Source: Acidithiobacillus sp. (GTDB taxonomy: Bacteria > Pseudomonadota > Gammaproteobacteria > Acidithiobacillales > Acidithiobacillaceae). Taken from it: a stretch of DNA of 52,509 bases. The notes beneath the pieces are model-generated. The model was given only the letters and a program-made list of their open reading frames with translations. It did no database searches and had not been told where the DNA came from. Positions 1 through 35,170 of this stretch are shown here, in pieces. Each line of letters starts with the position of its first letter. Position 1 is the first letter of the stretch. The stretch covers positions 1-52,509 of the forward strand of contig JAPTWR010000143.1 in NCBI GenBank assembly GCA_028065135.1. The letters run 5' to 3'. Both the position numbers and the translations under genes were made by a program.

Positions 1-55
1 TATTTTCTGCCAGCTTGGTTGAGCGCAGAGGTTTATTGTAGAGCGAGCGTTGTGC
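1..55. other. Window edge, no gene seen
   Basis: These bases lie downstream of the acyl carrier protein stop codon. I see no start codon with a ribosome binding site on either strand and no clear terminator hairpin. The rest of the pigment cluster may continue to the left of the window. Confidence 0.4.
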
Positions 56-319
56 TTAGCCGGGTTGATGGTTTTGTACGTAATTACTGAGGTTTCTTAA
101 GCAGCTGAATATCTCTGTTTTATTGGCTCCTTCGCCAGATAGCATCACCCCGTATTTCTTGGTGATTACCATAGACAGCTCCAGGAGGTCGATAGAATCC
201 AAGCCCAATGGGCCGCCATAGAGTGGGGCCTCAGGATCTACCTGCAAGGGGTCCCCTGGCAGGTTCAAGGATTTTATAATTAAACGGCTTAGGTCTGCTT
301 CTTCTGGGGTAAGGGCCAT
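56..319 (-). CDS. Acyl carrier protein of the aryl-polyene cluster
   Basis: An 87-residue acyl carrier protein that would carry the growing aryl-polyene chain as a thioester on a 4'-phosphopantetheine arm in the cytoplasm. The attachment site is the serine of the GLDSIDLLEL motif (Ser42), with the acidic helix that follows as in all ACPs. The ATG at 319 is preceded by a GGAGAC ribosome binding site with a spacing of about 9 bases. It is divergent from the ketosynthase operon starting at 627, and its location beside ketosynthase, chain-length factor, dehydratase and ketoreductase genes says it is pathway-specific and not the housekeeping AcpP. Aryl-polyene loci often carry two ACP genes; only one is in view. 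Identification as an ACP is firm; the substrate is inferred from context. Confidence 0.9.
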   Translation of the reverse strand: MALTPEEADLSRLIIKSLNLPGDPLQVDPEAPLYGGPLGLDSIDLLELSMVITKKYGVMLSGEGANKTEIFSCLRNLSNYVQNHQPG

Positions 320-389
320 TCTTTAATGTCTCCATTTTGACTGTCGTTGTACGTCAGATCCCGCTGGTCTGCCAATAGTGCGCGTAGCT

Positions 390-590
390 TTAATCCGCTC
401 TGCACGCGTTGTCAGGAGTGCACCGTTTTCTCATTCCCGCCGGTGCTCCCTCGTCGAGCGTAGCCTTGGGATTGTACCCCAGAATAAGGTGTCGTCCAGC
501 ATCCTCTGTGGCGGGGTTTGCCAGAGAAGATGGCATCGGGAGGCGTGTGGTCAGCAGGTCCCGGTTGACTTTTAGCCGCTTCACCATCAC
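390..590 (-). pseudogene. Possible remnant of an NAD-dependent epimerase/dehydratase C-terminus
   Basis: The reading frame on this strand encodes a stretch resembling the C-terminal tail of extended short-chain dehydrogenases (sugar epimerase or 3-beta-HSD type): LTTRLP, then after about 16 residues LGYNPKATLDEG, matching the usual pattern LGYxPKxSLEEG. An in-frame TGA lies immediately upstream, and no Rossmann domain, start codon with a ribosome binding site, or substantial continuation is present. I read it as a decayed 3' fragment of a gene that once stood upstream of the ACP gene. The resemblance is from memory of the family, is short, and could be chance. Confidence 0.3.
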
Positions 591-616
591 AATGGCTTTT
601 CAATATCGCATTGATT

Positions 617-622
617 TATAAT
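617..622 (+). promoter_or_regulatory. Candidate -10 box of the ketosynthase operon
   Basis: A perfect TATAAT lies only four bases before the ATG at 627. No good -35 hexamer is found 16-18 bases upstream. If used, transcription would start at about 628-630, leaving no room for a ribosome binding site before either the 627 or the 639 ATG. Confidence 0.35.
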
Positions 623-626
623 ATAT

Positions 627-1820
627 ATGTCCATTCTGATGATTTCTGGCGTGACCGCTACAAGTTGCATTGGCCGTGGTCTGGAGCAGACCTTGGCCGC
701 ATTGCATGGTCGGCGGGGTGGGCTTGCGCCTTGTGTATTCCGCGACGTGGTCGTCGACACTTGGGTCGGTGAAGTGGCTGGCGTGGATGACGAAAAAATG
801 GATGCGGATTTGCACGATTTCAATTGTCGTAACAACCGCTTGGCCCAGCTCGCACTTTCTCAGGATGGTTTTACAGATGCCGTTGAGGTGGCCGTCGGTC
901 GCTGGGGGCGACGACGCGTGGGTGTTTTCCTGGGAACGAGCACTGCCGGTATGTTACGTACCGAGTGGGCGTTTCGACATCGTGACGCAGTGAATGGCCA
1001 GCTACCGGCAGAATTCGTATATGCCGGTACCCATAGTCCTTATTCCCTTACGGAATTTGTCCGGCGTAAGCTTGGTCTTGCAGGGCCTGCTGTGGCTGTC
1101 TCGTCGGCGTGTTCTTCCAGTGCGAAGGTCTTCGCCTCCGCCCAGCGGATGATAGATTGCGGTTTGATTGATGCGGCGGTGGTGGGCGGTGTGGATTCAT
1201 TATGCGCGACGACACTCTATGGTTTTGAGTCTCTGGGTCTTTTGGCCAAAGAGCCTTGTCGACCGTTTAACGGTGATCGTGCGGGCATTTCTATTGGGGA
1301 GGCGGCCGCATATATGCTTGTGGAGAGAGTGACCGGTCCTCAGGATCGCGAAGCCGTCTGGTTGTTGGGTGTCGGCGAGTCAAGCGATGCCTATCATATG
1401 TCCTCACCACATCCGGAGGGTCTGGGCGCGCGCTTGGCCATGGAGCGCGCGCTAGTCTCCGCAGGATTGGGCCCTGAACATATTGATTATATTAATCTGC
1501 ACGGTACTGGCACCGTGGCGAATGATGCGGCAGAGGCAATCGCTATAGCGAATGTCTTCGGTACCGCAACACCTTGCAGCTCGACAAAGGGGGCTACGGG
1601 CCATACATTGGGCGCCGCAGGTGCTTTGGAAGCGGCCATATGCGTATTGTCCATTCAAAACGGCTTTATGCCGTCGGGCCCATATACCGGACCGCGGGAT
1701 CATGCGATGGAAATTAATTATATTTCACAAAATCGGGGAGCTGCGATCTCCACGGTGTTAAGTAATTCATTCGGTTTTGGTGGTAGTAACTGTAGCCTGA
1801 TTTTTGGCCGTCCCATTTAA
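627..1820 (+). CDS. Beta-ketoacyl-ACP synthase (KASII type), aryl-polyene
   Basis: A 397-residue condensing enzyme of the thiolase fold that would extend the aryl-polyene chain with malonyl-ACP, similar in role to ApeO/ApeR of aryl-polyene clusters. The full Cys-His-His triad is visible: Cys162 in SSACSSS, His292 in LHGTGT and His326 in KGATGHT, followed by a glycine-rich C-terminus (FGFGGSN). Length is normal for the family. The start is uncertain: ATG 627 has no ribosome binding site, and a second in-frame ATG lies at 639. The chain-length factor follows after 17 bases. Catalytic competence is read directly from the sequence; the pathway is inferred from the neighbours. Confidence 0.92.
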   Translation: MSILMISGVTATSCIGRGLEQTLAALHGRRGGLAPCVFRDVVVDTWVGEVAGVDDEKMDADLHDFNCRNNRLAQLALSQDGFTDAVEVAVGRWGRRRVGVFLGTSTAGMLRTEWAFRHRDAVNGQLPAEFVYAGTHSPYSLTEFVRRKLGLAGPAVAVSSACSSSAKVFASAQRMIDCGLIDAAVVGGVDSLCATTLYGFESLGLLAKEPCRPFNGDRAGISIGEAAAYMLVERVTGPQDREAVWLLGVGESSDAYHMSSPHPEGLGARLAMERALVSAGLGPEHIDYINLHGTGTVANDAAEAIAIANVFGTATPCSSTKGATGHTLGAAGALEAAICVLSIQNGFMPSGPYTGPRDHAMEINYISQNRGAAISTVLSNSFGFGGSNCSLIFGRPI

Positions 1821-1837
1821 CGAACCGGGGTTTTGCT

Positions 1838-2647
1838 ATGCATCCTGTGTATGTGGAAGGCATTGGTGTGTTGGGGCCGGGCATCCAAAGCTGGCAAGAG
1901 GCCGTATATTTACTGAAGGGTGAAGATACCTATCTGCCCGGAAGGACGATATTGTCGTCGCCGGAATCCTTACCCCCGGCAGAACGACGCCGCGCCAGCA
2001 GAGGGGTCATGGCCGCACTGCAGGTGGGATATGCGGCCTGTGCCATGGCGGGTATCTTGCCTGCGGAGCCTGCATCGGTGTTTGCTTCTTCGGGTGGCGA
2101 TGGAGATATCTGCAACGCCATTTGTTCTGCGATGGCCGCAGGCGACCATCTGATATCGCCCACCCAGTTTCACAATTCCGTGCATAACGCGATTTCTGGT
2201 TACTGGGGCATTGCGACGGGCGCGATGGCGCCATCGTCTGTGGTGAGCGCCTATGATGGGAGTTTTGCGGCTGGCCTGTTAGAAGCCGTGTCGCTGCTGC
2301 TGACGCTCCGTACCCCCGTGTTGCTGGTGGCCAGTGATCAGGACTATCCCTTCCCGCTATACGCCGCTCGCCCGGTACCCGATATTTTTGCGGTTGCGCT
2401 GTTATTGACGGTAACGCCGCAGCCCGGTAACGCGTTGGTGCAGATCCGGATTCCTGGCGATATGCCCTTTGCCGAGCGGCCTGGGCAAGCGATGTCCGAC
2501 GCGCAGCTTGACGATCTCTCCAGAGCCATCCCCGCGGCGCGTTGTCTGCCGCTGCTGCAATCCATCGCAAGGCGCGATAGCGGAAATATCGTATTGGAGT
2601 ATTTACCTTCTCAATATCTGGTGCTTGAAGTGGCGCCGTGTCGATAG
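1838..2647 (+). CDS. Beta-ketoacyl synthase chain-length factor
   Basis: A 269-residue shortened ketosynthase-like protein of the kind annotated as beta-ketoacyl synthase chain-length factor (PF13723) in aryl-polyene clusters, the counterpart of ApeC. It has the family-type start (VYVEGIGVLGPG) and the region equivalent to the nucleophile elbow, but reads SAYDGSFAAG there, with no catalytic cysteine, and lacks the LHGTGT and KGATGH histidine motifs. Known family members pair with the active ketosynthase and set chain length. The dehydratase start overlaps its end by 10 bases, which points to translational coupling. Confidence 0.88.
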   Translation: MHPVYVEGIGVLGPGIQSWQEAVYLLKGEDTYLPGRTILSSPESLPPAERRRASRGVMAALQVGYAACAMAGILPAEPASVFASSGGDGDICNAICSAMAAGDHLISPTQFHNSVHNAISGYWGIATGAMAPSSVVSAYDGSFAAGLLEAVSLLLTLRTPVLLVASDQDYPFPLYAARPVPDIFAVALLLTVTPQPGNALVQIRIPGDMPFAERPGQAMSDAQLDDLSRAIPAARCLPLLQSIARRDSGNIVLEYLPSQYLVLEVAPCR

Positions 2648-3090
2648 GTCGTCAGTGGATCTCTGATCACATTCCGCATAAAGGCAATATGCTCTTGCTG
2701 GATTGCGTAGAGCGCTGGGATGATGAACAGATTCTTTGTGTCGCGAGCAGCCATCGAAGCACAAGCAACCCATTGCGTGCGGGTGGACGGCTGGGTGCGA
2801 TTTGCGGTGTCGAGTATGCGGCACAGGCCATGGCTGTACATGATGCATTGGTACGGACGAAAGAGGGTGGCGAGCCTCAAAGGAGCGGTGCTGGTTACCT
2901 CGCGAGTGTCCGCGAATTATGTATGGAAATAACGCGCCTCGACGACATCGAGGGCGATCTGGCGGTCAGCGCAACAAGGCTCGCGGCCCACAGCAGTTTG
3001 CTTTACAGCTTCGTTATTTCCACTGACCGACGTATGCTTGTTAAAGGTCGAATCATTATTTTCGTGGCGGCTCAACAGGAAGTCCCTTGA
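2638..3090 (+). CDS. 3-hydroxyacyl-ACP dehydratase, ApeP type (hotdog fold)
   Basis: A 150-residue hotdog-fold protein that would dehydrate the 3-hydroxyacyl intermediate to form each polyene double bond. The family signature is visible: IPHKGNMLLLD near residues 11-21 with the catalytic-type histidine, NPLRAGG in the middle, and GVEYAAQAMAVH with the conserved glutamate. The start is GTG at 2638, inside the end of the chain-length factor gene, and the stop overlaps the ketoreductase start. This matches ApeP of aryl-polyene operons and not the longer FabA/FabZ housekeeping forms. Confidence 0.88.
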   Translation: MSIGRQWISDHIPHKGNMLLLDCVERWDDEQILCVASSHRSTSNPLRAGGRLGAICGVEYAAQAMAVHDALVRTKEGGEPQRSGAGYLASVRELCMEITRLDDIEGDLAVSATRLAAHSSLLYSFVISTDRRMLVKGRIIIFVAAQQEVP

Positions 3091-3812
3091 TGTGTAAACG
3101 TGCCTTGGTGACGGGCGGGAGTGGTGGCATTGGTGCCGCTATCTGTCAAAGGCTGGCCGCAGATGGCTTTGACGTCATTATTCACACCCATCGCAACCTG
3201 GTAAAAGCTACCGCGTTGGCGGCGTCCATCAGAGACGCTGGCGGTCGCGCAGCGGTGTCCGCCTTTGATATCACCGACCGCGAGGCGACCACCCAGTCCG
3301 TGCAGGAATTGATTGCGTCGGGGCCGATACAGGTGTTGATCAATAATGCCGGAATCCACGATGATGCGGTGTTTCCAGGACTCAGTCCGCAGCAGTGGCA
3401 GGAGGTCATAGATGTTTCGTTGAACGGCTTTTTCCATGTTACGCAGGCCGTATTGATGCCCATGATCCGCACCCGCTGGGGGCGGATCATCAATATTACC
3501 TCCGTGGCGGCGCTTATGGGGAATCGCGGACAAGTAAATTACGCAGCAGCGAAAGGTGCGTTACATGCGGCGACTAAGTCGCTAGCGTTGGAAGTGGCTA
3601 GTCGGGGTATTACCGTCAACGCCGTCGCGCCCGGCATTATCGCCACGGAAATGAGTGAACGGGCTTTTGATGTCGCGCGTATCACCCAGATGGTACCCAT
3701 GGGACGGGCGGGGCAAGCGGCCGAGGTCGCTGATCTCGTAGCTTTCCTGGCCTCAGAAAAAGCGGCTTATATCAGCGGGCAGATTATATCTATCAATGGT
3801 GCCATGGTATGA
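3090..3812 (+). CDS. 3-oxoacyl-ACP reductase (FabG-like ketoreductase)
   Basis: A short-chain dehydrogenase of 240 residues that would reduce the 3-oxoacyl-ACP product of the ketosynthase with NADPH, the ApeQ role. Visible are the cofactor motif TGGSGGIG, NNAG, a catalytic Ser-Tyr-Lys set (ITSVA, YAAAK) and the C-terminal ISGQ region. I chose ATG 3090 over the TTG one codon earlier because an AGGAAG ribosome binding site sits 7-8 bases before it and it overlaps the preceding TGA by one base. The antiporter start overlaps its stop as ATGA. Function as a ketoreductase is firm; the specific substrate comes from the operon. Confidence 0.92.
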   Translation: MCKRALVTGGSGGIGAAICQRLAADGFDVIIHTHRNLVKATALAASIRDAGGRAAVSAFDITDREATTQSVQELIASGPIQVLINNAGIHDDAVFPGLSPQQWQEVIDVSLNGFFHVTQAVLMPMIRTRWGRIINITSVAALMGNRGQVNYAAAKGALHAATKSLALEVASRGITVNAVAPGIIATEMSERAFDVARITQMVPMGRAGQAAEVADLVAFLASEKAAYISGQIISINGAMV

Positions 3813-5092
3813 ATACGGACTTGGCGACCCAGCAATCCGAACGTCTCGTATTTTTTACCCTGGCACAACTCTGCATTATTATTCTGGCCGCGCGCATCGC
3901 GGGAAGCTTGGCTGCCAGGATAGCCCAGGCCACTGTTGTTGGAGAAATTATCGCAGGCATTCTGTTGGGCCCTTCATTGTTCGGCTGGATAATGCCGGTT
4001 CCTTTTCTTTGGATTTTCCATTCTACTCCGTCAGGGCCGTTAGATGTCCTTTCCCAGTTAGGTCTCATCTTGCTGATGTTTCAGGTCGGCCTGGAATTCG
4101 ACTTTTCGCATCTTAAGAAAAAAGCCAATCGCCGTGTGGTGTTATGGATAGCGATGGCTAGCCTGTTGTTACCATTCGCTACGGGTTTGGGCGTGGGTTT
4201 CATGAGCGCGCCTCTGCTTTCTCCGGAGGCGAACCGCTGGGTTTCGGCGCTCTTTGTGGCTACCGCTTTTTCCATTACAGCTGTTCCTGTCCTCGGCCGC
4301 ATTATGATGGAGCTGGGTATAACGAAATCCCGACTTGGGGTGATCGCCATCAGCGCTGCGGCGATAAATGACGTGGTGGGCTGGTTATTGCTCGCACTGG
4401 TAACGGCCCTGGCGCTTGCGCAATTTCAATTCCCTTTATTTTTGGCCAAGGTGTTTTTCGTTTTTCTTTTTGTCCTGGCATGGTTTTTCTTCGTTCGCCC
4501 ACTCATGAAATGGGCGGTCCGCCACTTTAATGCCGGGCATGAGATATCTGCGACTTTTCTGGGGATTGTTTTGGTGAGCATATTCATCTCGGGTATGATT
4601 ACCTCGGCATTAGGGATATTCACGATATTTGGTGGGTTTGTTATGGGCGTCATATTGTATGACGAAGCTGATTTTGCCAAGCTATGGCAAGCGCGTGTCG
4701 CTCCTTTCGTTTCAGTTTTTTTTCTGCCAATATTTTTTACATATACCGGTTTGCGAACCAATATTGCTGCGCTCGATGGCGTGTGGCCGTGGATTTGGTG
4801 TGGTTTAATATTGATATTGGCGACGATCTCCAAGTTTGCTGGCGTATATGCCGCCGCGCGGATTTCAGGATTAAATCATCATCAGGGGAAAATAATGGGG
4901 GTCATGATGAATACCAGAGCACTCATGGAGCTTGTGGTCATTAATGTGGGTTATGATATGGGGGCTATTTCGGAAAAAACTTTTACCATGCTGGTCATTA
5001 TGGCCATTGTGAGCACCGTCGTCACCACGCCGTTGTTGCGGCGCTGGTTGCCTCATGCGCAAGGGCGACATGGGGAGGTCGTTGCTACTTGA
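3809..5092 (+). CDS. Cation:proton antiporter, CPA2/Kef type
   Basis: A 427-residue inner-membrane protein with about twelve hydrophobic segments, of the monovalent cation:proton antiporter-2 family. Family marks are the early GEIIAGILLGPSLFG segment, the QVGLEFD stretch, the AAINDVVGW motif carrying the Asn-Asp transport pair, and the late NTRALMELV segment. It has no C-terminal RCK/TrkA-N nucleotide-binding domain, so it is not a full KefB/KefC. Its start overlaps the ketoreductase stop (ATGA), so it is translationally coupled to a pigment biosynthesis operon, which is unusual. It might serve ion or pH homeostasis linked to pigment assembly at the membrane; that is inference. Confidence 0.88.
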   Translation: MNTDLATQQSERLVFFTLAQLCIIILAARIAGSLAARIAQATVVGEIIAGILLGPSLFGWIMPVPFLWIFHSTPSGPLDVLSQLGLILLMFQVGLEFDFSHLKKKANRRVVLWIAMASLLLPFATGLGVGFMSAPLLSPEANRWVSALFVATAFSITAVPVLGRIMMELGITKSRLGVIAISAAAINDVVGWLLLALVTALALAQFQFPLFLAKVFFVFLFVLAWFFFVRPLMKWAVRHFNAGHEISATFLGIVLVSIFISGMITSALGIFTIFGGFVMGVILYDEADFAKLWQARVAPFVSVFFLPIFFTYTGLRTNIAALDGVWPWIWCGLILILATISKFAGVYAAARISGLNHHQGKIMGVMMNTRALMELVVINVGYDMGAISEKTFTMLVIMAIVSTVVTTPLLRRWLPHAQGRHGEVVAT

Positions 5093-5121
5093 AAATGCTG
5101 AACAGTGGGGGCATATGACAG

Positions 5122-5886
5122 CTAACGCTGGTGCTGTATCCGGCGCGCCAATAATATCGGCAGACGTATTATAAAGCCGAAAAATAAACGGGTATGCATC
5201 CAGGTCAACAGAATGTTGTCACGCAGGTAATGAAAATGAGAAATCCCGCCGTCGCTGGTCTCAAAATAACGCACGGGTGCCGGTAAATTGATAATACGGA
5301 TTCCCATCCAGGACATTCGTACAGCGGCTTCGGGATCGAAATCGAAACGCCGCATCCAGCGCTGTTTGTGCATGAGGCGCTGCAGGGGGGCCAAGGGATA
5401 AACGCGAAAGCCAAACAGGGAGTCGCCGATACCCCCGCCTAACGTTTCCAGGTTGGCCCACCAGTTAGATATCTTACGACCTTTTACCCGAAGAGCAGGG
5501 GCGCTGGCATCAAAAACCGGTACGCCGAGAATCATGGCGTCAGGGTTGTTGGCAGACGCCTGCATAAATGCGGGGACCTCCCCGGCGGGGTGCTGACCAT
5601 CGGAGTCCATCGTCAATACATGGGTATAGCCCTGTCCCTGGGCTTGCTCCAAGCCATATCGTATAGCTTCTCCTTTGCCACGGTTGTGGGAGAGGATGAG
5701 AATGCGTAATCCACCATCCCGGCGCGCTAATTCCTGGAGGCCTATTGCCGTGCCGTCGGTACTCCCATCGACGATGACCCAGACAGGGTTCCAATGTTGA
5801 CGTGCCGCGACCACTGTTGCATAGACTTTGGGCCCGGGGTTGTAGCTCGGAATAAGCAATAAGTGGGTGCTGGAGGGTTGTTTCAT
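5122..5886 (-). CDS. Glycosyltransferase family 2 (pigment cluster)
   Basis: A 254-residue GT-A fold enzyme transferring a sugar from a nucleotide or lipid-linked donor. Visible are the N-terminal IPSYNPG, the nucleotide-binding VIVDGSTDGT, SHNRGKGEA, and the metal-binding MDSDGQHP. The frame is open another 60 codons upstream, but I chose ATG 5886 because it forms an ATGA overlap with the stop of the acyltransferase gene and begins at the GT2 beta strand. Aryl-polyene clusters commonly carry a GT2 and an acyltransferase, sometimes fused, thought to attach the polyene to a carrier molecule. It ends 29 bases from the convergent antiporter gene. Confidence 0.85.
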   Translation of the reverse strand: MKQPSSTHLLLIPSYNPGPKVYATVVAARQHWNPVWVIVDGSTDGTAIGLQELARRDGGLRILILSHNRGKGEAIRYGLEQAQGQGYTHVLTMDSDGQHPAGEVPAFMQASANNPDAMILGVPVFDASAPALRVKGRKISNWWANLETLGGGIGDSLFGFRVYPLAPLQRLMHKQRWMRRFDFDPEAAVRMSWMGIRIINLPAPVRYFETSDGGISHFHYLRDNILLTWMHTRLFFGFIIRLPILLARRIQHQR

Positions 5887-6671
5887 TCCAATTCGTCTGC
5901 TGCCGCTGACGCGACGTTTGGTGGTAAGGGATTGCCTGTCAGAGCTGAGTGAAAATAGGTTTCCAGTTCCACTATCGTACGGCGTACGTCCGTTGGTGGA
6001 TCGAAGCGGCGACCTATCTCTATACGGTAGTGAATAGGCATGGCCGGCTTGCGAAAGAAGGGCCATCCCTTACCGAGAAAGGGAGAGTCTGCGGTGATTA
6101 ATATGGTCTGGATGGGCACATGCGCCTGCTTGGCAATCAGCGCAATGCTGCCCCGTATGGTTCCGATGGGAAGGGGATGACTTCGCGTGCCTTCCGGGAA
6201 AAGAAGTAAATGACTGCCGCCACGTAGTTCTTCGACGGCAAGGTGAAGCATGTGGCGTAAGGCGTCATTACGAATGTAACAAGCCAGACGCGCACCGGCG
6301 CCAAAAAATGGATTGTCTACCAATTCCGCTTTCATAATGCACGCTAGGCGCGGCATGCGCGAAAGAATCATAATCGCATCAAGCAGTGAGGGATGATTCG
6401 GTGCGATGACCATCGGTAACTCATCGCTGAGTGTATCGAGTGCGCTAATGTCAAAATGGCAAGCACCGAGAGCGGATAATGTCCGCAGATACAGCCTAAA
6501 TCCCATGGAAATAACCCATCTCCCAATTAACTTCCGAAATTTTATCGGAAATATAATATTCATGGGTAGTGCAAAAATAGACCATAAAAGACTAACGCTC
6601 GCCAAGAGCGCGAGGCCTATGTAGAATACCACATATTCTCTGGCGGAGCGTATTTTTTCAAAAAATCTCAT
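5883..6671 (-). CDS. Lysophospholipid acyltransferase family protein (PlsC-like)
   Basis: A 262-residue membrane-associated acyltransferase with the NHPSLLD motif (HX4D catalytic pair) about 90 residues in and the FPEGTRS motif further on, which bind the acyl donor and phosphate acceptor. A hydrophobic N-terminal segment (residues about 12-45) would anchor it in the inner membrane. The start is uncertain: ATG 6671 (MRFFEK) gives a family-like N-terminus, while an upstream ATG at 6725 adds 18 unlike residues; neither has a good ribosome binding site. Coupling to the glycosyltransferase by ATGA suggests the two together anchor the polyene pigment or its glycolipid. Confidence 0.8.
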   Translation of the reverse strand: MRFFEKIRSAREYVVFYIGLALLASVSLLWSIFALPMNIIFPIKFRKLIGRWVISMGFRLYLRTLSALGACHFDISALDTLSDELPMVIAPNHPSLLDAIMILSRMPRLACIMKAELVDNPFFGAGARLACYIRNDALRHMLHLAVEELRGGSHLLLFPEGTRSHPLPIGTIRGSIALIAKQAHVPIQTILITADSPFLGKGWPFFRKPAMPIHYRIEIGRRFDPPTDVRRTIVELETYFHSALTGNPLPPNVASAAADELE

Positions 6672-6848
6672 GGGATGGAGACATCGATCGTGATGGTCTG
6701 GCCTGCAATGGCACATGGCTAGCATGTATCTGCATGAATATCTGACCCTTAGCCGGTATGCACTCCAACATTGACGTCGCCCTAAGCAGAAATAAGGATC
6801 TTAAATAAATTACCAGATTTTCCTAGCTTGTATCACAGGAGGTAAATT

Positions 6849-6992
6849 GTGTCAACAGCTTCGCGCTTGCCGCCGAAGCTGTTAATTTTGGTTCTTGGAA
6901 TGTGCAGCGCGACATTATTTTACGGAGTGTTAGTGTCCATTACTATTATCAGCAACGTATCCGCTGATCCAAATCGAGAGTTGTTGTCATAA
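6849..6992 (+). CDS. Small single-span membrane protein, unknown
   Basis: A 47-codon ORF with a textbook ribosome binding site: AGGAGG at 6837-6842, six bases before a GTG start at 6849. The product begins MSTASRLPPK, continues with about 25 uninterrupted hydrophobic residues (LLILVLG to ITIIS), and ends with a short polar tail NVSADPNRELLS. This is the layout of a single-span membrane protein or an uncleaved signal anchor. It is the only plus-strand gene in the gap between two minus-strand pigment genes. A weak promoter-like TTGACG lies at 6771-6776. I do not recognise the family. Confidence 0.55.
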   Translation: MSTASRLPPKLLILVLGMCSATLFYGVLVSITIISNVSADPNRELLS

Positions 6993-7196
6993 AGTATAAG
7001 GATGTTTTGGCCCTTAATAAGACGCTTCTGTGCGGCGCATATCCCCGCCAAAATAGAACGGAATAAATTGCTTGCCGGTGATGTCACTCGACCGGGCGTC
7101 TGGACACGCAGATCTCCAATTTGGAGAATGGCGTAGCGGGAGCGGGGAGAACGTTTTTAAAGCGCTGGTAGCATGCAATGTAGAGACTGGGAATTT
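6993..7196. other. Intergenic, no gene supported
   Basis: About 200 bases between the small membrane ORF and the 3' end of the chorismatase gene. One plus-strand frame of 64 codons (7072-7266) runs into the chorismatase gene but has no ribosome binding site. No clear terminator is visible. Confidence 0.3.
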
Positions 7197-8243
7197 TTAT
7201 GAATGCACGACTCCGCCTGTGGCCTCGATCTCCACAAGAAGTTCGGATCTGCAGATGTCCGCTTGAATGTATAGCGTTTTCGTCGCCGGTGCGATAAGCC
7301 GATCCAGTTCTGCCTGGATAATGGTTAGGTCCGCTATGTTGCGAAAATAGACGCGATAATTCAGTGTATCTAATGTATGTAAATGATGCCCGGCGACGCG
7401 ATTCGCCTCATCGATAACCGCGGAAATGTTCCGTATGCTTTCCTGGGTTTGTGCGGCGACATCATCGATATGCAAGGTGTCGTGTCCAACAATGCTGGCG
7501 GTTCCGGAAATAAATAAGGCATGTTGCTGATCTAGATTGAGCGATCCGCCGCGCGAGAAGGTGGGGCTGCATGGCCCATATTTTTTGGGATAGCGATAGG
7601 CGCTAATCTGTCGGGGATTTTCCAGAGCTACAGATTTGTCCCGCCCGGCGAGAAAGTGTACGACCAAGTTTGTGGAGGATGTCCCTACGGCACTCGCGGC
7701 GGGAATGCTACTTTCCTCGGAAAGTCGATCGTGGGCAATAAACGAGCCTTGGCGCCCGATATTGAACTGGCGATAGTGTTCCAGGCCGTGCGTGGCACCG
7801 TTGATATCGGGTAAAAAATTCCAGACGCGGAGTAAGTGAATATGGCCGATTTCTTGGAGGAGGTTGAATATTTGCTGATAGGCTTCTTGAGCGCACGACT
7901 GAATGGGCGGGGGATTGATATTTTCGCCATCGTCTATCGGTGTTGTTATAGCCAGGGTAATACTGCCTAAAGTAAGGGTTGCGCTACGCCGATAGCGTAT
8001 ATCCAAATAATGCCCAGGGATTACGGGCTGGGTCGTACTCCATATTTCACAGATATCAGCTCCGTAAATGGTCAGGGGTGTTTTTATAATGCCACTATTC
8101 TGGTCGGTACCGATCCCTGACGTGAGTTGGCTGTTGAACAAAACGATACCGAGAATATTTTTTGTGCGCAGCGCATTCTTGTTTAACGCCGTTGCTGCCG
8201 GAGCGTAGGTAAGCGTAAGCTGCGTGCCCGTGCTTGTTGACAT
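7197..8243 (-). CDS. Chorismatase, FkbO/Hyg5/XanB2 family
   Basis: A 348-residue cytoplasmic enzyme of the family that removes pyruvate from chorismate. XanB2 of Xanthomonas makes 3- and 4-hydroxybenzoate this way, the 3-hydroxybenzoate being the starter of xanthomonadin. Recognisable family blocks are VWNFLPDING, GLEHYRQFNIGR and RYPKKYGP followed by SPTFSRGG. The reading frame is open 43 codons further upstream into the monooxygenase gene, but ATG 8243 has GGAGAT eight bases upstream and clears the preceding stop by 20 bases, so it is the start I trust. Which hydroxybenzoate it makes (type I, II or III) cannot be told by eye. Confidence 0.88.
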   Translation of the reverse strand: MSTSTGTQLTLTYAPAATALNKNALRTKNILGIVLFNSQLTSGIGTDQNSGIIKTPLTIYGADICEIWSTTQPVIPGHYLDIRYRRSATLTLGSITLAITTPIDDGENINPPPIQSCAQEAYQQIFNLLQEIGHIHLLRVWNFLPDINGATHGLEHYRQFNIGRQGSFIAHDRLSEESSIPAASAVGTSSTNLVVHFLAGRDKSVALENPRQISAYRYPKKYGPCSPTFSRGGSLNLDQQHALFISGTASIVGHDTLHIDDVAAQTQESIRNISAVIDEANRVAGHHLHTLDTLNYRVYFRNIADLTIIQAELDRLIAPATKTLYIQADICRSELLVEIEATGGVVHS

Positions 8244-8263
8244 GAACTTATCTCCACGCATGG

Positions 8264-9586
8264 TTAAATCCTGATGTTTTCCTTTCGCTTTTTGTATGCG
8301 GCCCAAGAACGTCCGAGGTGCCGTATCGACATCAGATAATAGACCATCTTGAAGAACCGTAATGAGGTCCAAATCGGTGTTTTATTAAAAATATCTCCTG
8401 CAAGAACGGATAGCACGGCCTCTTTGGTGCGTGCCGGATTGCCCGGATACATGAACATATCGCGCAGGGCGGGCTGTGTAATGCGATAAATGTACCAGGA
8501 GAACACCTTCCCCCCGTGCCGGCTTTTCCGGTCAAAGTGACGCAACGCGGCGGCGGCACGTCGCGGTTGCCGCAGGCAAATATCAATAGTATCGGCACCG
8601 ATAAAAGCGCTTTGCATCGCGAGCATGACGCCCGACGAAAAGACCGGATCGTAAAATGCGAATGCATCCCCTAACATGAGGAAGCTTTCCCCATGGGTTT
8701 GCGCGCAGATATAGGCGTAATTGCCAGTAGCTTCGACATCGGTCACGCGCCGTGCGTCTGCTAATCGCATTGCCAGCTCGGGAGACATGGCGATAGTATC
8801 CGCAAAAAAATCTTCCACGGGTTTCTTTCGCGTTTTTAGATAAGAGGGCCATACCACCGCTCCCACGCTGGTGGTTCCATCGGCTAACGGGATGAACCAG
8901 AACCATCCGTGTTCAAACCAGAATAGCGAAATATGCCCCTCTTCGCTGGCAGGGAGGCGATGTGCCCCACGGAAATGCGCATAAAGGGCGGAACTGTTAT
9001 GTTTCGGGTTATTCCGCTTGATCTTGAAGCATGTCCCGAGAAATGTATCTCTACCGGATGCATCAACCAGGAAGCGTGCTTTCCATGTTTCTGTCGATCC
9101 ATCCTCGCGGAGGGCGTGAACTATGGCACCTTTCTCGTGCGGTAAAAATTCAACCGACCGGGCCCGGCATCCCTCAATCGTCGTCGCGCCTTTTTTGCGC
9201 GCATTGCGAAACAGAATATCATCGAAGTCTGCGCGTCTGACCTGATAGGCCATGGGCATGGACTTGTCCCATGCATCGGCAAATAAGAAGGTTTCTCTTT
9301 TCTTTGCATGGTAGGGCGAGTTGAATTCTGCACCCCACTTTTTCATCCCGATCTGATCTACCTCCTGGGCAACACCCAATTGCTGCAGCAGCGGTAAATT
9401 GGCGGGGAGCAGGGACTCACCTATATGAAATCTTGGATGATGTGCTTTTTCTAGTATGGTGATTCGGTGGCCGCGCTCGGCGAGCAGCGCACCGATCGTC
9501 GAGCCTGCCGGTCCGCCACCTATAACCAGAACGTCGCATTCGTGTGTCGCAGGATCTGCGTTTGATATCTGTTGTTCTCTGGTCAT
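8264..9586 (-). CDS. FAD-dependent halogenase-like monooxygenase
   Basis: A 440-residue flavoprotein of the tryptophan-halogenase/geranylgeranyl-reductase superfamily. The FAD-binding GGGPAG is at residues 23-28, the GDAFAFYDPVFSSG FAD-contact segment lies about two thirds along, and the signature WxWxIP of flavin-dependent halogenases is present as WFWFIP (228-233). A lysine pair in GMKKWGAEF (82-83) sits where these enzymes often carry the conserved region around the active lysine. The ATG at 9586 has GGAGGA upstream. Xanthomonadins are brominated, so halogenation of the aryl head is a reasonable guess; epoxidation or reduction is possible. Confidence 0.82.
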   Translation of the reverse strand: MTREQQISNADPATHECDVLVIGGGPAGSTIGALLAERGHRITILEKAHHPRFHIGESLLPANLPLLQQLGVAQEVDQIGMKKWGAEFNSPYHAKKRETFLFADAWDKSMPMAYQVRRADFDDILFRNARKKGATTIEGCRARSVEFLPHEKGAIVHALREDGSTETWKARFLVDASGRDTFLGTCFKIKRNNPKHNSSALYAHFRGAHRLPASEEGHISLFWFEHGWFWFIPLADGTTSVGAVVWPSYLKTRKKPVEDFFADTIAMSPELAMRLADARRVTDVEATGNYAYICAQTHGESFLMLGDAFAFYDPVFSSGVMLAMQSAFIGADTIDICLRQPRRAAAALRHFDRKSRHGGKVFSWYIYRITQPALRDMFMYPGNPARTKEAVLSVLAGDIFNKTPIWTSLRFFKMVYYLMSIRHLGRSWAAYKKRKENIRI

Positions 9587-9637
9587 CCGTCGTTCCTCCA
9601 GTGGAGCTTTCTATGAAGGCTACACTGACTTAATTAG

Positions 9638-10420
9638 TTAGCTCGGCGCATTGGTCGATGATGTGTGATCACCGCAAGCACCTGTAACGGTGTGCTTGTA
9701 TATTTGTGGAAGTGCTTTGATATCATTGAATATCATGGCTAAAGACACGCTACGTAGTTCTTTATGGCTACACAGCTCTAGTAGTCTGGGCAACACAACC
9801 AGCCCCAGCTTGTTATCATGCAACAATAGTATGTCTCCGGCGGCCAGGTTGCGGCTGAGGCGGCGGAGCACGGTGTCTGGATTTCGAGATGTTGTGTCGT
9901 AACCACGACGAGTCCACGCGACGTGGTGCAGACCGAGGCGCCGTAATACCCCGCCCAAGAATGGACTGCGAAAGCCAAAAGGCGCGCGGAAGAAACGCGG
10001 TGCTGTCCCATGCGTCGCATCTTCGATGGCTTTTTGTGCTTTAACAATGTCGTTCGCTAATGCAGTTGGGCCGCTGAACGCGAAAAGCATGTTGTGGCGA
10101 TAACTGTGATTTTCTACGCTATGGCCACGCCGAAGTATTTCGGCGACTAAATCCGGGTGCGCAGCAACTTTCTCACCGATGCAAAAAAAGGTGGCTTTGG
10201 CGTTATGCAGGTCTAGCTGATCCAGTATTTGAGTGGTTATTTCTTCATGTGGTCCATCGTCGAAGGTGAGGGCAATCTCGCGACGTGCGACAGCGGTTTG
10301 AGGCAGACGGACTAAATTCGGGCTGATCAATTTGCAGCGTGGACAAAGGACGAGCATGGCAAGCACGACCTGGCTGAATATTATACTTGCCAAAATGTAT
10401 AGTGTGATCGTTTCTAGCAT
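9638..10420 (-). CDS. Polysaccharide deacetylase (NodB/CE4 domain)
   Basis: A 260-residue protein with an N-terminal membrane segment (residues about 5-25) and a NodB homology domain. Motif 1 TFDDGPH supplies the catalytic base and a metal-binding aspartate; motif 2 NHSYRH supplies metal-binding histidines; RAPFGFRSP is motif 3 and LLLHDN a late motif. It would remove N-acetyl groups from an envelope glycan at the outer face of the inner membrane. It precedes the monooxygenase gene by 51 bases on the same strand and probably heads the minus-strand pigment transcript. No strong ribosome binding site is seen before ATG 10420. Confidence 0.85.
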   Translation of the reverse strand: MLETITLYILASIIFSQVVLAMLVLCPRCKLISPNLVRLPQTAVARREIALTFDDGPHEEITTQILDQLDLHNAKATFFCIGEKVAAHPDLVAEILRRGHSVENHSYRHNMLFAFSGPTALANDIVKAQKAIEDATHGTAPRFFRAPFGFRSPFLGGVLRRLGLHHVAWTRRGYDTTSRNPDTVLRRLSRNLAAGDILLLHDNKLGLVVLPRLLELCSHKELRSVSLAMIFNDIKALPQIYKHTVTGACGDHTSSTNAPS

Positions 10421-10683
10421 GAGTTGATATATTCTCTTTGTCGACTCTGTGAGTTATTGTAACGACAGATTATCTCTCTTTCAGTAAGGAGTCACTCATT
10501 GCGTCCAGTCGGCACTCAGCGTCGTGTCGCCGCGGCCCCCCATGGTGCCTTGCCGGGGGCGGTACAGTGGTCACCAAAGCGCGGGTATTGTGCCTCATAT
10601 TTTAGATATTGCGGTAATAGCGGTGTACTTTTTTCTGAATGCGCCAAAATGCCTCGTTCTGTGCGCTTTCTATCAGCGGAAAT

Positions 10684-10697
10684 CTTGTTTAAACAAG
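10684..10697. repeat. Perfect 14-base palindrome
   Basis: CTTGTTTAAACAAG reads the same on both strands. It is central in a gap without genes, with the minus-strand pigment operon on one side and sspB on the other. Its symmetry suits a dimeric regulator, but no function is shown. Confidence 0.35.
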
Positions 10698-10772
10698 TGG
10701 ATAAGTTATATTGGACTGAAGTTTGACAGCGGCGTGCACTTGCCTGATCCCACCGTCGGTATCTGAACAATC

Positions 10773-10800
10773 TTGAGAATTCCGAAAAATCGGCTATAAA
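10773..10800 (+). promoter_or_regulatory. Sigma70-type promoter of sspB
   Basis: TTGAGA (10773-10778) and TATAAA (10795-10800) are separated by 16 bases. Transcription would start near 10807, giving a leader of about 95 bases that includes a six-base-pair hairpin (GCAGCG at 10824, CGCTGC at 10838) before the sspB start. Confidence 0.5.
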
Positions 10801-10901
10801 CTGGTTCATGGATGATTTTTAACGCAGCGGCGACAGGCGCTGCCCTTGTGTCTGTTGCCTGCGCGGGTTATATGGCTGGATGCTGATGATGGAGAACAAA
10901 A

Positions 10902-11318
10902 TTGTTACCTGAAAGTGCTAAGTCCTATCTGCTCAATGCCGTCTATCAGTGGTGTGTGGACCAGGGTTATACCCCGTATATCCTGGTGGTTGTGGCTTAT
11001 CCGGGGGTGTCTGTTCCGAGTGGCTACGAAAAGGATGGACGGATGATTCTTGATGTTTCGCCGCGCGCTTGCCACAGTCTCAATATGGCGGATGACTGGA
11101 TTACCTTTAACGCCCGCTTTGGTGGGGTCGCCCGCATGGTAGATGTACCGATGGCGGCTGTGGCGGCGATTTACGCCGCGGAGACACAGGAGGGGATGGG
11201 CTTTGCCGATCCCGAAATTCCAACCACACCGCCGTCGTCCCCAGAGGGCGGCGGTGTGGAGAGCACGGACAAACCCATAGGCAAGTCCGAGCGCCCTTCA
11301 CTGCGGGTGGTGAAATAG
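10902..11318 (+). CDS. sspB: ClpXP protease specificity-enhancing factor SspB
   Basis: A 138-residue adaptor that binds SsrA-tagged stalled translation products and delivers them to ClpXP. The SspB core is clear: LLNAVYQWCVDQG, TPYILVVV, VSPRA, FNARFGG and VPMAAVAAIYA, followed by a flexible Pro/Ser/acid-rich tail that ends in the short basic LRVVK patch, the usual ClpX-docking region. The start is TTG at 10902, with GGAGAA seven bases upstream. The transglycosylase gene overlaps its stop. It is not linked to sspA (39.6 kb here), unlike many proteobacteria. Confidence 0.92.
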   Translation: MLPESAKSYLLNAVYQWCVDQGYTPYILVVVAYPGVSVPSGYEKDGRMILDVSPRACHSLNMADDWITFNARFGGVARMVDVPMAAVAAIYAAETQEGMGFADPEIPTTPPSSPEGGGVESTDKPIGKSERPSLRVVK

Positions 11319-11983
11319 TGAGGCCTGGCCTGCTGCTCGGCACGATGCTGCTCCTTTGTGGAAGCACGGCGGAGGCCAATATTTATGCGTATACCGATAG
11401 CAGTGGGGTAGTGCATTTGACCAATGTGCCTGGCGGGAATGACAGGTACCGGATGGTTATGCGAACGCCGAAAATGGCGGTAGCCATGGCGCGCGCAGAT
11501 TTTAACCAGGTGGCCAGGGCGCATTATCAGGCACTGATTCGGGCGGCGGCTAGCCGTTATGGAGTCAGTCCGGCGCTGGTTAACGCCGTGATTAGCGCCG
11601 AGTCCGGTTATAATGCGGGGGCGGTTTCACCCAAAGGAGCGGTCGGGCTGATGCAACTCATTCCGGCAACGGCGGATCGTTTCGGGGTGGCCAACTCCTT
11701 CAGCCCGGCTGACAACATCAATGGTGGCACGGCGTATCTGGCCCATCTGCTGCGGGTATTTAGTGGTGACCTGAAACTGGCCGTAGCCGCCTACAACGCG
11801 GGATCGAAGGCCGTGATCCAGGCGGGTTATCATATCCCGCCTTTTGCGGAAACCCAGGCATATGTGCCGCGGGTACTCGCTTATTATCGGCAGTACCTGA
11901 ATAGCGGCGGCAAGGCGGGCGGTCTGAATCCGCAAGCGGTGGCGCAAGCCGCCCCGCAGCTTATTCAGGTATCTAATCCGTAG
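11318..11983 (+). CDS. Lytic transglycosylase with DUF4124-like N-terminus
   Basis: A 221-residue exported enzyme that cleaves peptidoglycan glycan strands to 1,6-anhydro products. It begins with a signal peptide (about residues 1-20, ending STAEA), then a short DUF4124-type segment (YAYTDSSGVVHLTN), then an SLT/goose-lysozyme domain: SAESGYN with the catalytic glutamate, SPKGAVGLMQLIP, NINGGTAYL and AAYNAG. The GTG start overlaps the sspB stop. The final 19 bases overlap the convergent fis gene. Family assignment is firm; the particular MltC/Slt role is not known. Confidence 0.88.
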   Translation: MRPGLLLGTMLLLCGSTAEANIYAYTDSSGVVHLTNVPGGNDRYRMVMRTPKMAVAMARADFNQVARAHYQALIRAAASRYGVSPALVNAVISAESGYNAGAVSPKGAVGLMQLIPATADRFGVANSFSPADNINGGTAYLAHLLRVFSGDLKLAVAAYNAGSKAVIQAGYHIPPFAETQAYVPRVLAYYRQYLNSGGKAGGLNPQAVAQAAPQLIQVSNP

Positions 11984-12207
11984 GCTTGTAGTTTTTTACG
12001 CAAGGTGTTGCGATTAATGCCTAACCACTGGGCAGCCGTGCCGCGTTGCCCGCTACAGTGCTGCAGCGTGTTGGCAAGCAGTGCGCGCTCCACTTCGCCT
12101 ATTATCATCGCATGCAAATTACCGGGTACCTCGCCCTGCAAATCCGCCAAATAGCGGTCCATGACTGCGGTCACACAATCGCTCAACGATAGGTTCGTGG
12201 TTTCCAT
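11965..12207 (-). CDS. fis: Fis-family DNA-binding protein
   Basis: An 80-residue nucleoid-associated regulator. The C-terminal helix-turn-helix of Fis/NtrC type is clear (AAQWLGINRNTLRKKLQAYGL), preceded by a dimerisation region. Length is slightly short of the E. coli protein (98). It is the last gene of the aroQ-accB-accC-prmA-zinc-ribbon-fis run, 12 bases after the zinc-ribbon protein gene, and its 3' end overlaps the transglycosylase gene. In many gamma-proteobacteria fis follows dusB; here it follows prmA as in several beta-proteobacteria. Confidence 0.88.
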   Translation of the reverse strand: METTNLSLSDCVTAVMDRYLADLQGEVPGNLHAMIIGEVERALLANTLQHCSGQRGTAAQWLGINRNTLRKKLQAYGLDT

Positions 12208-12219
12208 GGCCAGCCCTGC

Positions 12220-12858
12220 TCAGGGGCGACTGAGGAGCGTGACCTGGTAACCGGCTGCGGTCGTTAATGCGGGGCTGCTGAGTGTAAATGGTACCGCAGT
12301 GCCGGGAACAAACCCGGAGCGGGCATGGAATGCGCCGCTCAGGTATTGAGCGGCGGTAAACTGCAGATGCGCTATCGGTGCACCGTAGACATTGCTGAGG
12401 GTGACTTCGATCACCGGGTAGGCCTGGACTTTGTTGGCCACATTTTCGATGTTGCCGGTGATGCGCGCCAGATGCTTCCCCGCCTGGGTAACCTGACTGT
12501 TTAAAATACGGATCTCTTTGTTAGGACCCGGCCACGGGATGGTGACACCCAATTGTTCGGCGCTACTCAGTAATATGCGGCGCACTGGCGCACTGGTGGC
12601 GGCGTAACTATAACTGCGTGTCCACCAAAGTGCCTGCCCAATCAGGGCGATAATCAGCAGGGTAATGGTCAGGATGAGCAGAAGTTTACCCAGAAAGCGC
12701 CCCAGGCTGCTACCGGAACGCGTATCCTCTGCGGCGATATCAAAATGGAAGATTTGCTGGCAGACGCTGCATTTCGCTTGATAGTGATGCTCGCGCAACG
12801 CGTTGTTATCGGTGGCGAAGGTCGATTCACAGCGGGGGCAGATGATTTCCATGGTCAT
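12220..12858 (-). CDS. Zinc-ribbon and DUF3426 domain membrane protein
   Basis: A 212-residue protein with an N-terminal MJ0042-type zinc ribbon (CPRCES and CSVC pairs), a transmembrane helix at about residues 57-80, and a C-terminal domain of DUF3426 type that would lie in the periplasm. Function is unknown in the family. The gene overlaps the prmA stop by 4 bases and stands in the conserved prmA-DUF3426-fis order. Confidence 0.85.
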   Translation of the reverse strand: MTMEIICPRCESTFATDNNALREHHYQAKCSVCQQIFHFDIAAEDTRSGSSLGRFLGKLLLILTITLLIIALIGQALWWTRSYSYAATSAPVRRILLSSAEQLGVTIPWPGPNKEIRILNSQVTQAGKHLARITGNIENVANKVQAYPVIEVTLSNVYGAPIAHLQFTAAQYLSGAFHARSGFVPGTAVPFTLSSPALTTAAGYQVTLLSRP

Positions 12859-13733
12859 ACTCCGATTTTGCGCTGGCCATAGAGGAGCGACCAGTCTTCT
12901 TCGTGTTGCGGGGCGGCGAGATCGAAATAGGGTCTATAGGCGGCGATGATCTCCGCTTCTTGACGGTGCAGGATGCCGGACAGGGCGATCCAGCCTCCGG
13001 GACGGACCGCGTCAGCCAAGGTGGCGGCGAGGGCCAACAAGGGGGCCGCCAAAATGTTGGCGATCAGAATGTCGGCCATGGGCAGGCTGGCGTTTTCCGG
13101 TAGCGCGAGTTGCAGGCCGGTACTGACACCGTTGCTTTCAGCGTTGGCGGCGGCTACCTGCAGCGCAACGGGGTCCGTATCTACGCCGAAGGCATGGTCG
13201 ACTCCCAGCAGCAGCCCGGCGATGGCCAGGATACCGGAGCCGCAACCGTAATCGATAAGGCTTTCGCCCCCGCGGATGCGCGCGTCCAGGAAACGCAGAC
13301 AGAGCGCCGTGGTGGCGTGGGCGCCGGTGCCAAAGGCCTGGCCGGGATCGAGATGCAGCACGCGAGTGGCGTCGGCAGGCGCCGTATCCCAACTGGGGGC
13401 GATCCAGAGGCGACCGAAGCAGCGTGCCGGGAAAGCAGCCTGCGTCGCCGCCACCCAGTCTTGTTCCTCCAGCGGCGTGAATTGTGCTGCGAATTGCTGC
13501 CAGTCATTGTCTCTGACCAGTCTTTGCAGAATCGCTTCATTATGGTCGTCGGCAGGAAACAATGCCTGGCACTGGCTGTTCTGCCAGATCAGGCCTTCAT
13601 CGAACACGGCTTCACTATCATCGCCCTCAAGAAAGGTGACGGCTTCTGCCCCGGCATCCAGCAATTGCGCCTCGATGGCTGCCGCGGCTGTCGCGGGGAC
13701 ACGCATGTCGAGCTGCCACCAGGCAATCTTCAT
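12855..13733 (-). CDS. prmA: Ribosomal protein L11 methyltransferase
   Basis: A 292-residue SAM-dependent methyltransferase that trimethylates ribosomal protein L11. The N-terminal substrate-recognition domain is followed by the family region [15 protein letters not shown] and the SAM-binding [12 protein letters not shown], then the [10 protein letters not shown] motif that replaces the NPPY-type motif. Length is as expected. Its start overlaps the accC stop by 4 bases, consistent with one transcript. Confidence 0.95.
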
Positions 13734-15076
13734 AGGTCGAGCAAGGCCTCCAGATAGTGGATATGCACCCCGCCTGCGGCGTACTGGGCCTCTTCCAGGA
13801 TACGCCGGTGCAGGGGGATATTGGTCTGGATACCCTCAATGGTGGTCTCGCGCAGGGCGCTGCGCATACGCATATTGGCTTCCTCGCGGTTGCCTCCGAA
13901 CGCGATGATTTTGCCGATCATGGAGTCATAGAAAGGTGGCACGCGATAACCCGCATAAATGTGACTGTCGACCCGGATGCCTGGCCCGCCGGGCGGGTGC
14001 CAGGCGGTAATTTGTCCAGGAGAGGGTACGAAACGCTCCGGGTCTTCGGCATTGATGCGGCATTCGATGGCGTGACCGCTGAGTACAACATCTTCCTGCC
14101 GAATCCCAAGAGGCAGGCCCGCTGCAATGCGGATCTGAGCCTTGATGATGTCGATGCCGGTAATCAGCTCCGTGACCGGGTGCTCGACCTGCACGCGTGT
14201 ATTCATTTCAATGAAGTAGAAGGTCTGGCTGCCCGGATCGTAGAGGAACTCGATCGTGCCGGCGCCCCGATAGCCCATATCCTCGCAGGCTCTGACTACC
14301 GAAGCGCCGATTTCAGCCCGCTGGGCGGCGCTGATGCCAGGAGCGGGGGCTTCTTCGATCACTTTTTGATGGCGGCGCTGCACCGAGCAGTCTCGTTCAC
14401 CCAGATGAACGCAATGGCCATGGGCATCGCAGAGTATCTGAAACTCGATATGGCGCGGCGTCTCCAGGAACTTTTCCATGTACAGGGTGGGGTTGCCGAA
14501 AGCCTTGCCCGCCTCTGCGCGGGTCAGATTGGCGGCGTTGATGAGGTGCGCCTCCGTATGCACTACCCGCATACCGCGCCCACCACCACCACCGGCGGCC
14601 TTGAGAATGACGGGGTAACCGATCTCGCGGGCAATGGTTTTGAGGGTTTCATTGTTGTCGGGCAAAGCTCCGTCGGAGCCCGGCACACAGGGCACTCCGG
14701 CCTTCTTCATGGCCGCTTTGGCGGCAATTTTGTCGCCCATCAGACGGATGGTTTCGGCACGCGGGCCGATAAAGGCGAAGCCACTTTTTTCGATCCGCTC
14801 GGCGAAGTCGGCATTTTCCGAAAGGAAGCCGTAGCCGGGATGAATGGCTTCGGCATCCGTTACCTCGGCGGCCGCAATCACGGCGGGAATATTCAGATAG
14901 CTTTTGTCGCTGGGCGCCGGGCCGATACACACCGACTCGTCGGCGAGTTTGACATGCAGAAGATCGCGATCAGGCTCGGAGTGGACGGCGACGGTGCGGA
15001 TGCCCAGTTCGCGGCAGGCGCGCTGAATACGCAGAGCAATCTCGCCGCGGTTGGCAATGAGGATTTTTTCAAACAT
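13730..15076 (-). CDS. accC: Biotin carboxylase subunit of acetyl-CoA carboxylase
   Basis: A 448-residue ATP-grasp enzyme that carboxylates biotin on AccB with bicarbonate and ATP, the first half-reaction of malonyl-CoA synthesis. Visible are the N-terminal [14 protein letters not shown], the glycine-rich ATP loop GGGGGRGM, and the [16 protein letters not shown] active-site segment. I chose ATG 15076 (family N-terminus) over the longer frame starting at 15133; it overlaps the accB stop by 8 bases. It feeds malonyl units to fatty acids and, in this organism, to the aryl-polyene pathway. Confidence 0.95.
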
Positions 15077-15545: not shown

Positions 15546-15564
15546 GCTCTTTCCTTGGTATCAG

Positions 15565-34941: not shown

Positions 34942-35170
34942 GGAGAAAAAACGAATAATTACGGCATGTTAGAGGGTGTTTATAAAGAGTAAACAAACTA
35001 CTTGAAAGGGTTCCTGCAATCATCGGATTACATGATGCAAAATGCACTTGATAATGCTCTTTCTTCAGCCGTGGAATACAGAGGTAGGGCGCGTCTTGTT
35101 TTTCTAGGAGCTTGATTTTATATGCGTGCTGTTGATATTGCCGGGACAAACGAGTGCTGGTGGTAAAATT
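34942..35170. other. Intergenic between the dcw promoter and rnpB, no gene seen
   Basis: AT-richer than the genes on both sides. A minus-strand frame (34916-35281) is open across it but runs back into the RNase P RNA gene, so it is not a protein gene. No intrinsic terminator with a T run is apparent after rnpB. Confidence 0.4.

Follow-up and report, generated by a model that had tools for sequence, protein, structure and literature searches.

Among described pigment clusters, the one nearest by gene order to the candidate aryl-polyene (APE) cluster that we report here, from an Acidithiobacillus sp. contig (JAPTWR010000143.1), is the arc system of Azoarcus sp. BH72. In the excerpted text of its description (PMC3949708), arc occupies two loci, one with arcK, J, I, H, G (antiporter), F, E, D, C, B (chorismatase) and A (halogenase) and one with arcN, P, Q, R, S, T and V, with a single acyl carrier protein (ACP), arcV, across both. 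The same text reports that ArcB produced 3-hydroxybenzoate (3-HBA) and ArcT activated it, that mutants with an insertion in arcK or arcT lost their colour, that the antiporter follows the ketoreductase in the gene table and that arc works together with a dar cluster; arcuflavin, for which 4-fluoro-3-HBA was used in feeding experiments, is proposed to be an aryl-heptaene without bromine, even though ArcA carries a halogenase annotation. We find that positions 56–10,420 of a 52,509-nucleotide stretch (the window, which always refers to the whole stretch) very probably hold most of a type II aryl-polyene lipid cluster of the xanthomonadin/arcuflavin type, the product of which would be a yellow pigment anchored in the membrane; with its left part read from a near genome, the cluster is complete-looking and conserved, in an acidophile. 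Whereas this type of pigment system is already known, its host, an acidophilic mining bacterium, and its come-and-go pattern are new: a literature search by title and abstract, with subscription papers outside its scope, found no account of an aryl-polyene cluster in Acidithiobacillus, and the main text of PMC9734747 contains no word beginning with ‘aryl’.

The cluster runs from ketosynthase (KS), chain-length factor (CLF), dehydratase (DH), ketoreductase (KR) and antiporter to glycosyltransferase, acyltransferase, chorismatase and halogenase homologue, which is the arc order minus F and C, and arcN, P, Q, R, S, T and V have counterparts in a deacetylase, an exporter, a LolA-like protein, an acyltransferase, a DH, an AMP-ligase and an ACP. 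Whereas Azoarcus has two loci, Acidithiobacillus has one, in which no counterpart of arcF, arcC (MipA) or arcM (methyltransferase) was recognised, with no genome-wide search made for them. The yellow-pigment cluster of Lysobacter enzymogenes OH11 likewise has a KS/ORF16 pair, a KR, two DHs, an ACP, an outer-membrane lipoprotein carrier, exporters and a chorismatase homologue (ORF5) but, in the excerpted description, no halogenase; there, the CLF was essential and the pigment protected against UV, visible light and H2O2 (PMC3691225). With the Xanthomonas xanthomonadin (pig/xan) cluster, compared by description only, the shared elements are an XanB2-family chorismatase, a halogenase, an AMP-ligase and an ORF16/17-like pair. 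The gammaproteobacterial APE type, including the E. coli type, to which we take the solved proteins 6QSP (KS:CLF) and 6QSR (dehydratase) to belong, has two ACPs and needs no chorismatase or halogenase, whereas we found one ACP here.

The probable polyene-building core and its neighbours

The host is, to judge from DNA identity, an Acidithiobacillus near A. ferrivorans: the window is roughly 90–94% identical to A. ferrivorans DSM 22755 (L003) in pieces of at least 3 kb (88% in one 69-base piece) and roughly 77–92% identical to two Acidithiobacillus metagenome-assembled genomes (L004 and L006). An acidophilic producer had been proposed from the core genes, and A. ferrivorans is indeed named as an acidophile in a reference title within the excerpted PMC9734747. 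For comparison we surveyed 29 genomes of the family (G-numbers), six of which fail the joint standard of 90% completeness and at most 5% contamination. The nearest, G001, shares 88% of sampled 31-letter words with the window, and its contig C202 (L008) is 99.2% identical to window positions 1–5588 over a 5.6-kb overlap and extends 12.7 kb further left.

What we observe directly is gene content, gene order, family membership, key residues and co-occurrence. KS, CLF, DH, KR and the antiporter lie head to tail on the forward strand, with overlaps at CLF/DH, DH/KR and KR/antiporter, and the biosynthetic open reading frames (ORFs) in the window are open. The KS (627..1820, +; ArcK/ORF17-type) exceeds the cut-off of NF006618 (528.8 bits, cut-off 407), has 6QSP chain A as its nearest solved relative (E 5.9e-77 against sequences in the Protein Data Bank, PDB) and carries the full triad, with Cys162 in ACSSS, His292 in LHGTGT and His326 in GHTLGAAG. 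The CLF (1838..2647, +; ArcJ/ORF16-type; PF13723, E 2.9e-26) is truncated to the N-terminal half, 269 aa, and matches 7f28_A (E 1.4e-9) and then 6qsp_B (E 1.8e-6). It had been described as cysteine-less, which is right for the active site, where SAYDGS sits at the position read as the KS cysteine motif, and wrong for the rest of the protein, which holds five cysteines. The essential Gln166 of Lysobacter ORF16 (PMC3691225) has no matchable counterpart in it; a match to Gln168 was dropped because several relatives have Ser, Thr or Met there.

The DH (2638..3090, +; ArcI counterpart) has no Pfam or NCBIfam match at 1e-3, and as a single sequence it reaches 6QSR chain B only at E 0.48, but a profile of 12 orthologues matches that chain at E 7.6e-9, as the sole PDB sequence at E ≤ 0.01, which agrees with a hot-dog dehydratase of what we take to be the ApeP type. 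The FabG-like KR (3087..3812, +; ArcH counterpart), whose likely ATG at 3090 overlaps the DH stop, scores 357.5 bits against NF004200 (cut-off 273) and 273.5 bits against the FlxB model, below its cut-off of 340. The ACP (56..319, −; ArcV counterpart; PF00550) scores 83.3 bits against NF006617 (cut-off 70) and has its attachment serine in LDSIDL. As a reading of the genes, the original prediction of a xanthomonadin-like APE pathway in an acidophile holds, with every gene that it named present where it was placed.

Beyond the KR lie a CPA2 monovalent cation:proton antiporter (3809..5092, +; ArcG counterpart; PF00999, E 8.9e-57; TIGR00932 below cut-off), a family 2 glycosyltransferase (GT2; 5122..5886, −; ArcE counterpart; PF00535), whose ATG overlaps the stop of a PlsC-type acyltransferase (5883..6725, −; ArcD counterpart; PF01553), three genes on which the original prediction did not dwell. 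A polysaccharide deacetylase-like protein at the far end (9638..10420, −; ArcN counterpart; PF01522, E 2.5e-30) is part of the cluster as well. The antiporter has no match in the compared cluster stretches of G016, G017, G025 and G027; it is therefore not essential, and we set it aside as a diagnostic marker.

The aryl-acid ligase and exporter that had been expected left of the window are both present in G001. On L008 we find the AMP-ligase (7135–8496), a second, FabA-like DH (8462–8797), an LpxL-like acyltransferase (8782–9759), a LolA-like protein (9756–10436) and an MMPL exporter (10433–12784), and the ligase, DH, acyltransferase, LolA-like protein and exporter stand on that side in relatives as well as in G001. 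A small membrane protein without a Pfam match (6323–7093), presumably COG4648, precedes the ligase and has matches in 13 of the 14 genomes that carry the cluster.

Starter supply and the halogenase-like flavoprotein

A chorismatase of the FkbO/Hyg5/XanB2 family (7197..8261, −; ArcB counterpart) is present as predicted (PF21168, 107.4 bits, above cut-off; TIGR04444, 205.3 bits, below its cut-off of 325), with a plausible ATG at 8261 in place of the mechanical TTG at 8372. Its G253, C337 and catalytic E344 align with G240, C327 and E334 of Hyg5 (5ag3), and FkbO (4bps) carries Ala at both the Gly253 and the Cys337 positions. The CH-II signature, given in the excerpted PMC7170507 as Gly, Gly and Cys at Nat-hyg5 164, 231 and 318 and moved by an offset of 9 to Hyg5 173, 240 and 327, is present in two of its three residues and so is incomplete. 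Gly253, Cys337 and E344, together with Ala191 at the third signature position, do not vary among the 12 sequences aligned (that of the window plus 11 of the 15 family matches, leaving out G001, for which the window stands, G008, G014 and a second copy in G013). Because the protein keeps Gly and Cys where FkbO has Ala, its residues fit a 3-HBA-forming enzyme rather than the FkbO type; a CH-III/XanB2 assignment would fit on a comparison with Hyg5 and FkbO, and with XanB2 by description only. According to the excerpted PMC3949708, the reaction of a chorismatase cannot be predicted accurately from alignment alone.

In X. campestris, the excerpted PMC5069965 has XanB2 providing 4-hydroxybenzoate for ubiquinone, whereas here a separate UbiC-family lyase matches above cut-off in 28 of the 29 genomes, the sole miss being a genome that is 69% complete. 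This leaves the chorismatase probably free for, and dedicated to, the pigment, and a role for it as ubiquinone supplier is probably not needed. A plasmid search with the chorismatase returned 12 records, each below 60% identity, and the one region inspected, on a Caballeronia plasmid, held no pigment cluster. On G016:C110 and G017:C1, a distant chorismatase (38–39% identical to that of the window) adjoins the exporter rather than the flavoprotein, and no CPA2 match is found; in these two genomes the gene for starter supply appears to have been swapped.

The predicted halogenase-like flavoprotein (8264..9586, −; ArcA counterpart) matches PF04820 above cut-off, and its nearest solved relatives are flavin-dependent halogenases (8zop, 3e1t, 5buk, 7fco and 5dbj). 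It carries K83, WFWFIP and FYDPVFSSG. In an alignment with 120 homologues among the matches listed (120 of at least 8,000 scored), all but one of the 121 proteins have Lys83, and all 121 have WxWxIP (W228/W230/I232/P233) and F..P..S.G (F311/P314/S317/G319). Lys83 aligns with Lys76 of 3e1t, which we take to be the catalytic lysine, and we likewise presume the halogenase motif names. Among the matches listed, relatives named Thiobacillus, Polaromonas, Rhodoferax and Burkholderiaceae are 64–69% identical, so the family is widespread.

Whether this protein halogenates is the point at which a rival reading survives best: it could, with a probability that we place clearly below even yet well above marginal, instead hydroxylate the aryl head or act on it as some other tailoring oxidase. 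All NCBIfam halogenase models stay below cut-off (CmlS, 192.9 bits against 900), as does the QhpG monooxygenase model (168.9 bits, cut-off 240); ring 4-hydroxylation has been proposed for the Lysobacter pigment (excerpted PMC3691225); and arcuflavin is held to be non-brominated despite ArcA, so that gene content does not imply a brominated product. Set against this are the near-invariant halogenase signatures and the halogenases that head the list of PDB matches. The acidophile set of ArcA-type ‘halogenases’ offers material for the question of whether such enzymes halogenate at all.

In the aryl-polyene lipid pathway as a whole, the chemical steps are without exception inferred, as are the end group and the role of the pigment. 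The chorismatase would convert chorismate to 3-HBA, which the AMP-ligase just left of the window would load onto the single ACP; the KS and truncated CLF would extend it with malonyl units, and each unit would become a conjugated double bond through the KR and the two DHs. While the aryl head is bound to its carrier, the flavoprotein may halogenate it; attaching the polyene to a lipid or sugar anchor would fall to the acyltransferases and GT2, and the LolA-like protein and MMPL exporter would take it to the outer membrane, where it could quench oxidants and light, a plausible benefit in acid, metal-rich settings.

Distribution and history of the cluster

The chorismatase and the CLF are each matched in 14 of the 29 family genomes and the flavoprotein in 18, of which 14 are at E < 1e-130 and four are weak (E 8.7e-6 to 8.7e-4). 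The 14 are the same for all three proteins (G001, G003, G004, G005, G007, G008, G013, G014, G015, G016, G017, G021, G025 and G027), so the association is not due to chance; G013, an incomplete bin, has two chorismatases.

In nine of the 14, the cluster lies, on at least one side, at the fbp/slt-prmA-accCB junction. It sits on one contig between fbp and prmA, 18–20 kb apart, in G005, G015, G016, G017 and G027; the window bridges the two cluster contigs of G001; G014 has one contig with fbp and the ligase and another with the remainder and slt-prmA; in G003 the cluster is split over two long contigs, one half by fbp and the other by slt-prmA; and G013 shows only the slt side. The 15 genomes that lack the cluster all have a short stretch between fbp and prmA, 2.1–7.5 kb (more than 5 kb in G009, G023, G026 and G028), and slt, which encodes the lytic transglycosylase, lies within it in every case. 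In G004, G007, G008 and G021 the cluster is elsewhere and the junction is short (2.2–2.3 kb); fbp and prmA were not found in G025, which is 61% complete. GC content is 52.4% over window positions 1–10,500 and 60.1% in the remainder.

Simple vertical descent is contradicted by pairwise identities and trees alike. G021 and G007 belong to different genera and are 89% identical in FBP and 65% in PrmA, but 90% in KS, 93% in KR, 93% in CPA2 and 88% in flavoprotein; G007 and G001 share a genus and are 96% and 84% identical in FBP and PrmA, but 71% in KS and 72% in flavoprotein. In the cluster tree (13 cluster genomes, without G013), G021 groups with G004, G007 and G008 (support 0.78) and these with G016 and G017 (0.90); in a tree of five housekeeping proteins (27 genomes, without G013 and G025), G004, G007 and G008 are neighbours of the G001 group (1.00) and G021 pairs with G020 (1.00). 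Both are re-rooted FastTree trees, in which support labels near the root may be shifted. Together these results point to transfer of a second cluster version between genera. The flavoproteins of G025 and G027 (56% and 51%) are further from that of the window than are the betaproteobacterial ones (64–69%, among the matches listed), so ancestral presence in the whole family is only one possible reading; the fbp-slt version may be ancestral with losses, or may have been gained repeatedly at one site.

At its widest, and with a probability that we put below even, the reading is that extreme iron- and sulfur-oxidising acidophiles make a halogenated aryl-polyene outer-membrane lipid with a chorismatase of their own, encoded on an on/off island at fbp-slt that was lost or regained repeatedly, with a second version moving between genera. 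Iron, oxidants and low pH are everyday conditions for Acidithiobacillus, so a comparison of close relatives that do and do not carry the cluster at one site amounts to a natural test of the pigment's value there.

Points against the assignment and alternative readings

Several observations weigh against the aryl-polyene lipid assignment. The cluster is known here from its genes, the pigment being predicted, and its left part is read from G001 and relatives rather than from the window's own assembly. The second ACP that had been expected near the left edge did not appear in a scan for the carrier serine motif in ORFs of 50–180 aa (window 1–16,000 and L008 1–13,400; one ACP in total), and no O-methyltransferase was recognised within the cluster, no genome-wide search having been made. 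The chorismatase has Ala191 where Hyg5 has Gly173, one of the three Hyg5-type signature residues, and the UbiC match of G001 consists of two partial pieces on two contigs. Finally, a lipoprotein-like gene of the cluster is in fragments in the window and G001 and is also broken in G014.

This gene, which in some relatives encodes 142 aa without a Pfam match between PlsC and the chorismatase (L003 10438–10866), survives in the window as a broken remnant (6923..7155, −), seen as three tblastn pieces at 6923–7212, the last of which runs into the chorismatase end at 52% identity. Together with the 15 of 29 family genomes that lack the cluster, it would suit a cluster in decay that makes no pigment in the source strain. 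We regard this as improbable: no biosynthetic ORF of the window is interrupted, and wherever G001 also has the complete ORF the two are 99–100% identical (the G001 GT2 is cut by contig ends). Moreover, whereas the lipoprotein is matched over its full length in G005, G013, G015, G016 and G017, the compared stretches of the other seven cluster genomes (G003, G004, G007, G008, G021, G025 and G027) hold no match to it, yet keep KS, CLF, KR, flavoprotein and chorismatase.

Less probable still is an arcuflavin- or flexirubin-like end product, in which the aryl-polyene acid is esterified with a dialkylresorcinol (DAR), as the partnership of arc with dar in Azoarcus (excerpted PMC3949708) would suggest. 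The KASIII C-terminal domain PF08541 has exactly one match in 27 of 29 genomes, including G001 (two in G014, with 5% contamination, and none in G028, 69% complete), and in G001 the gene lies on one contig with another KS (40% identity to the KS of the window), so that it is best read as FabH. With the sole KASIII gene so read, none is left for DarB, a point of difference from Azoarcus; the PF08541 counts therefore do not support a DAR ester, DarA not having been searched for. That the genes serve a different lipid pathway is hardly credible, since, although other lipid pathways also use KR, acyltransferases and MMPL proteins, the combination of aryl-acid supply, truncated CLF and ApeP-like DH is specific, the best PDB match of the KS is 6QSP and the gene list is as in arc.

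Elsewhere in the window, a bacterial class A RNase P RNA (35167–35511, −; 340 bits) adjoins a run of division and cell-wall genes (ftsZ- and mur-like ORFs, by eye) at about 17–34 kb, and positions 46257–52343 hold, also by eye, a run of glycosyltransferase-like ORFs with a second polysaccharide deacetylase-like protein and an O-antigen ligase-like membrane protein.

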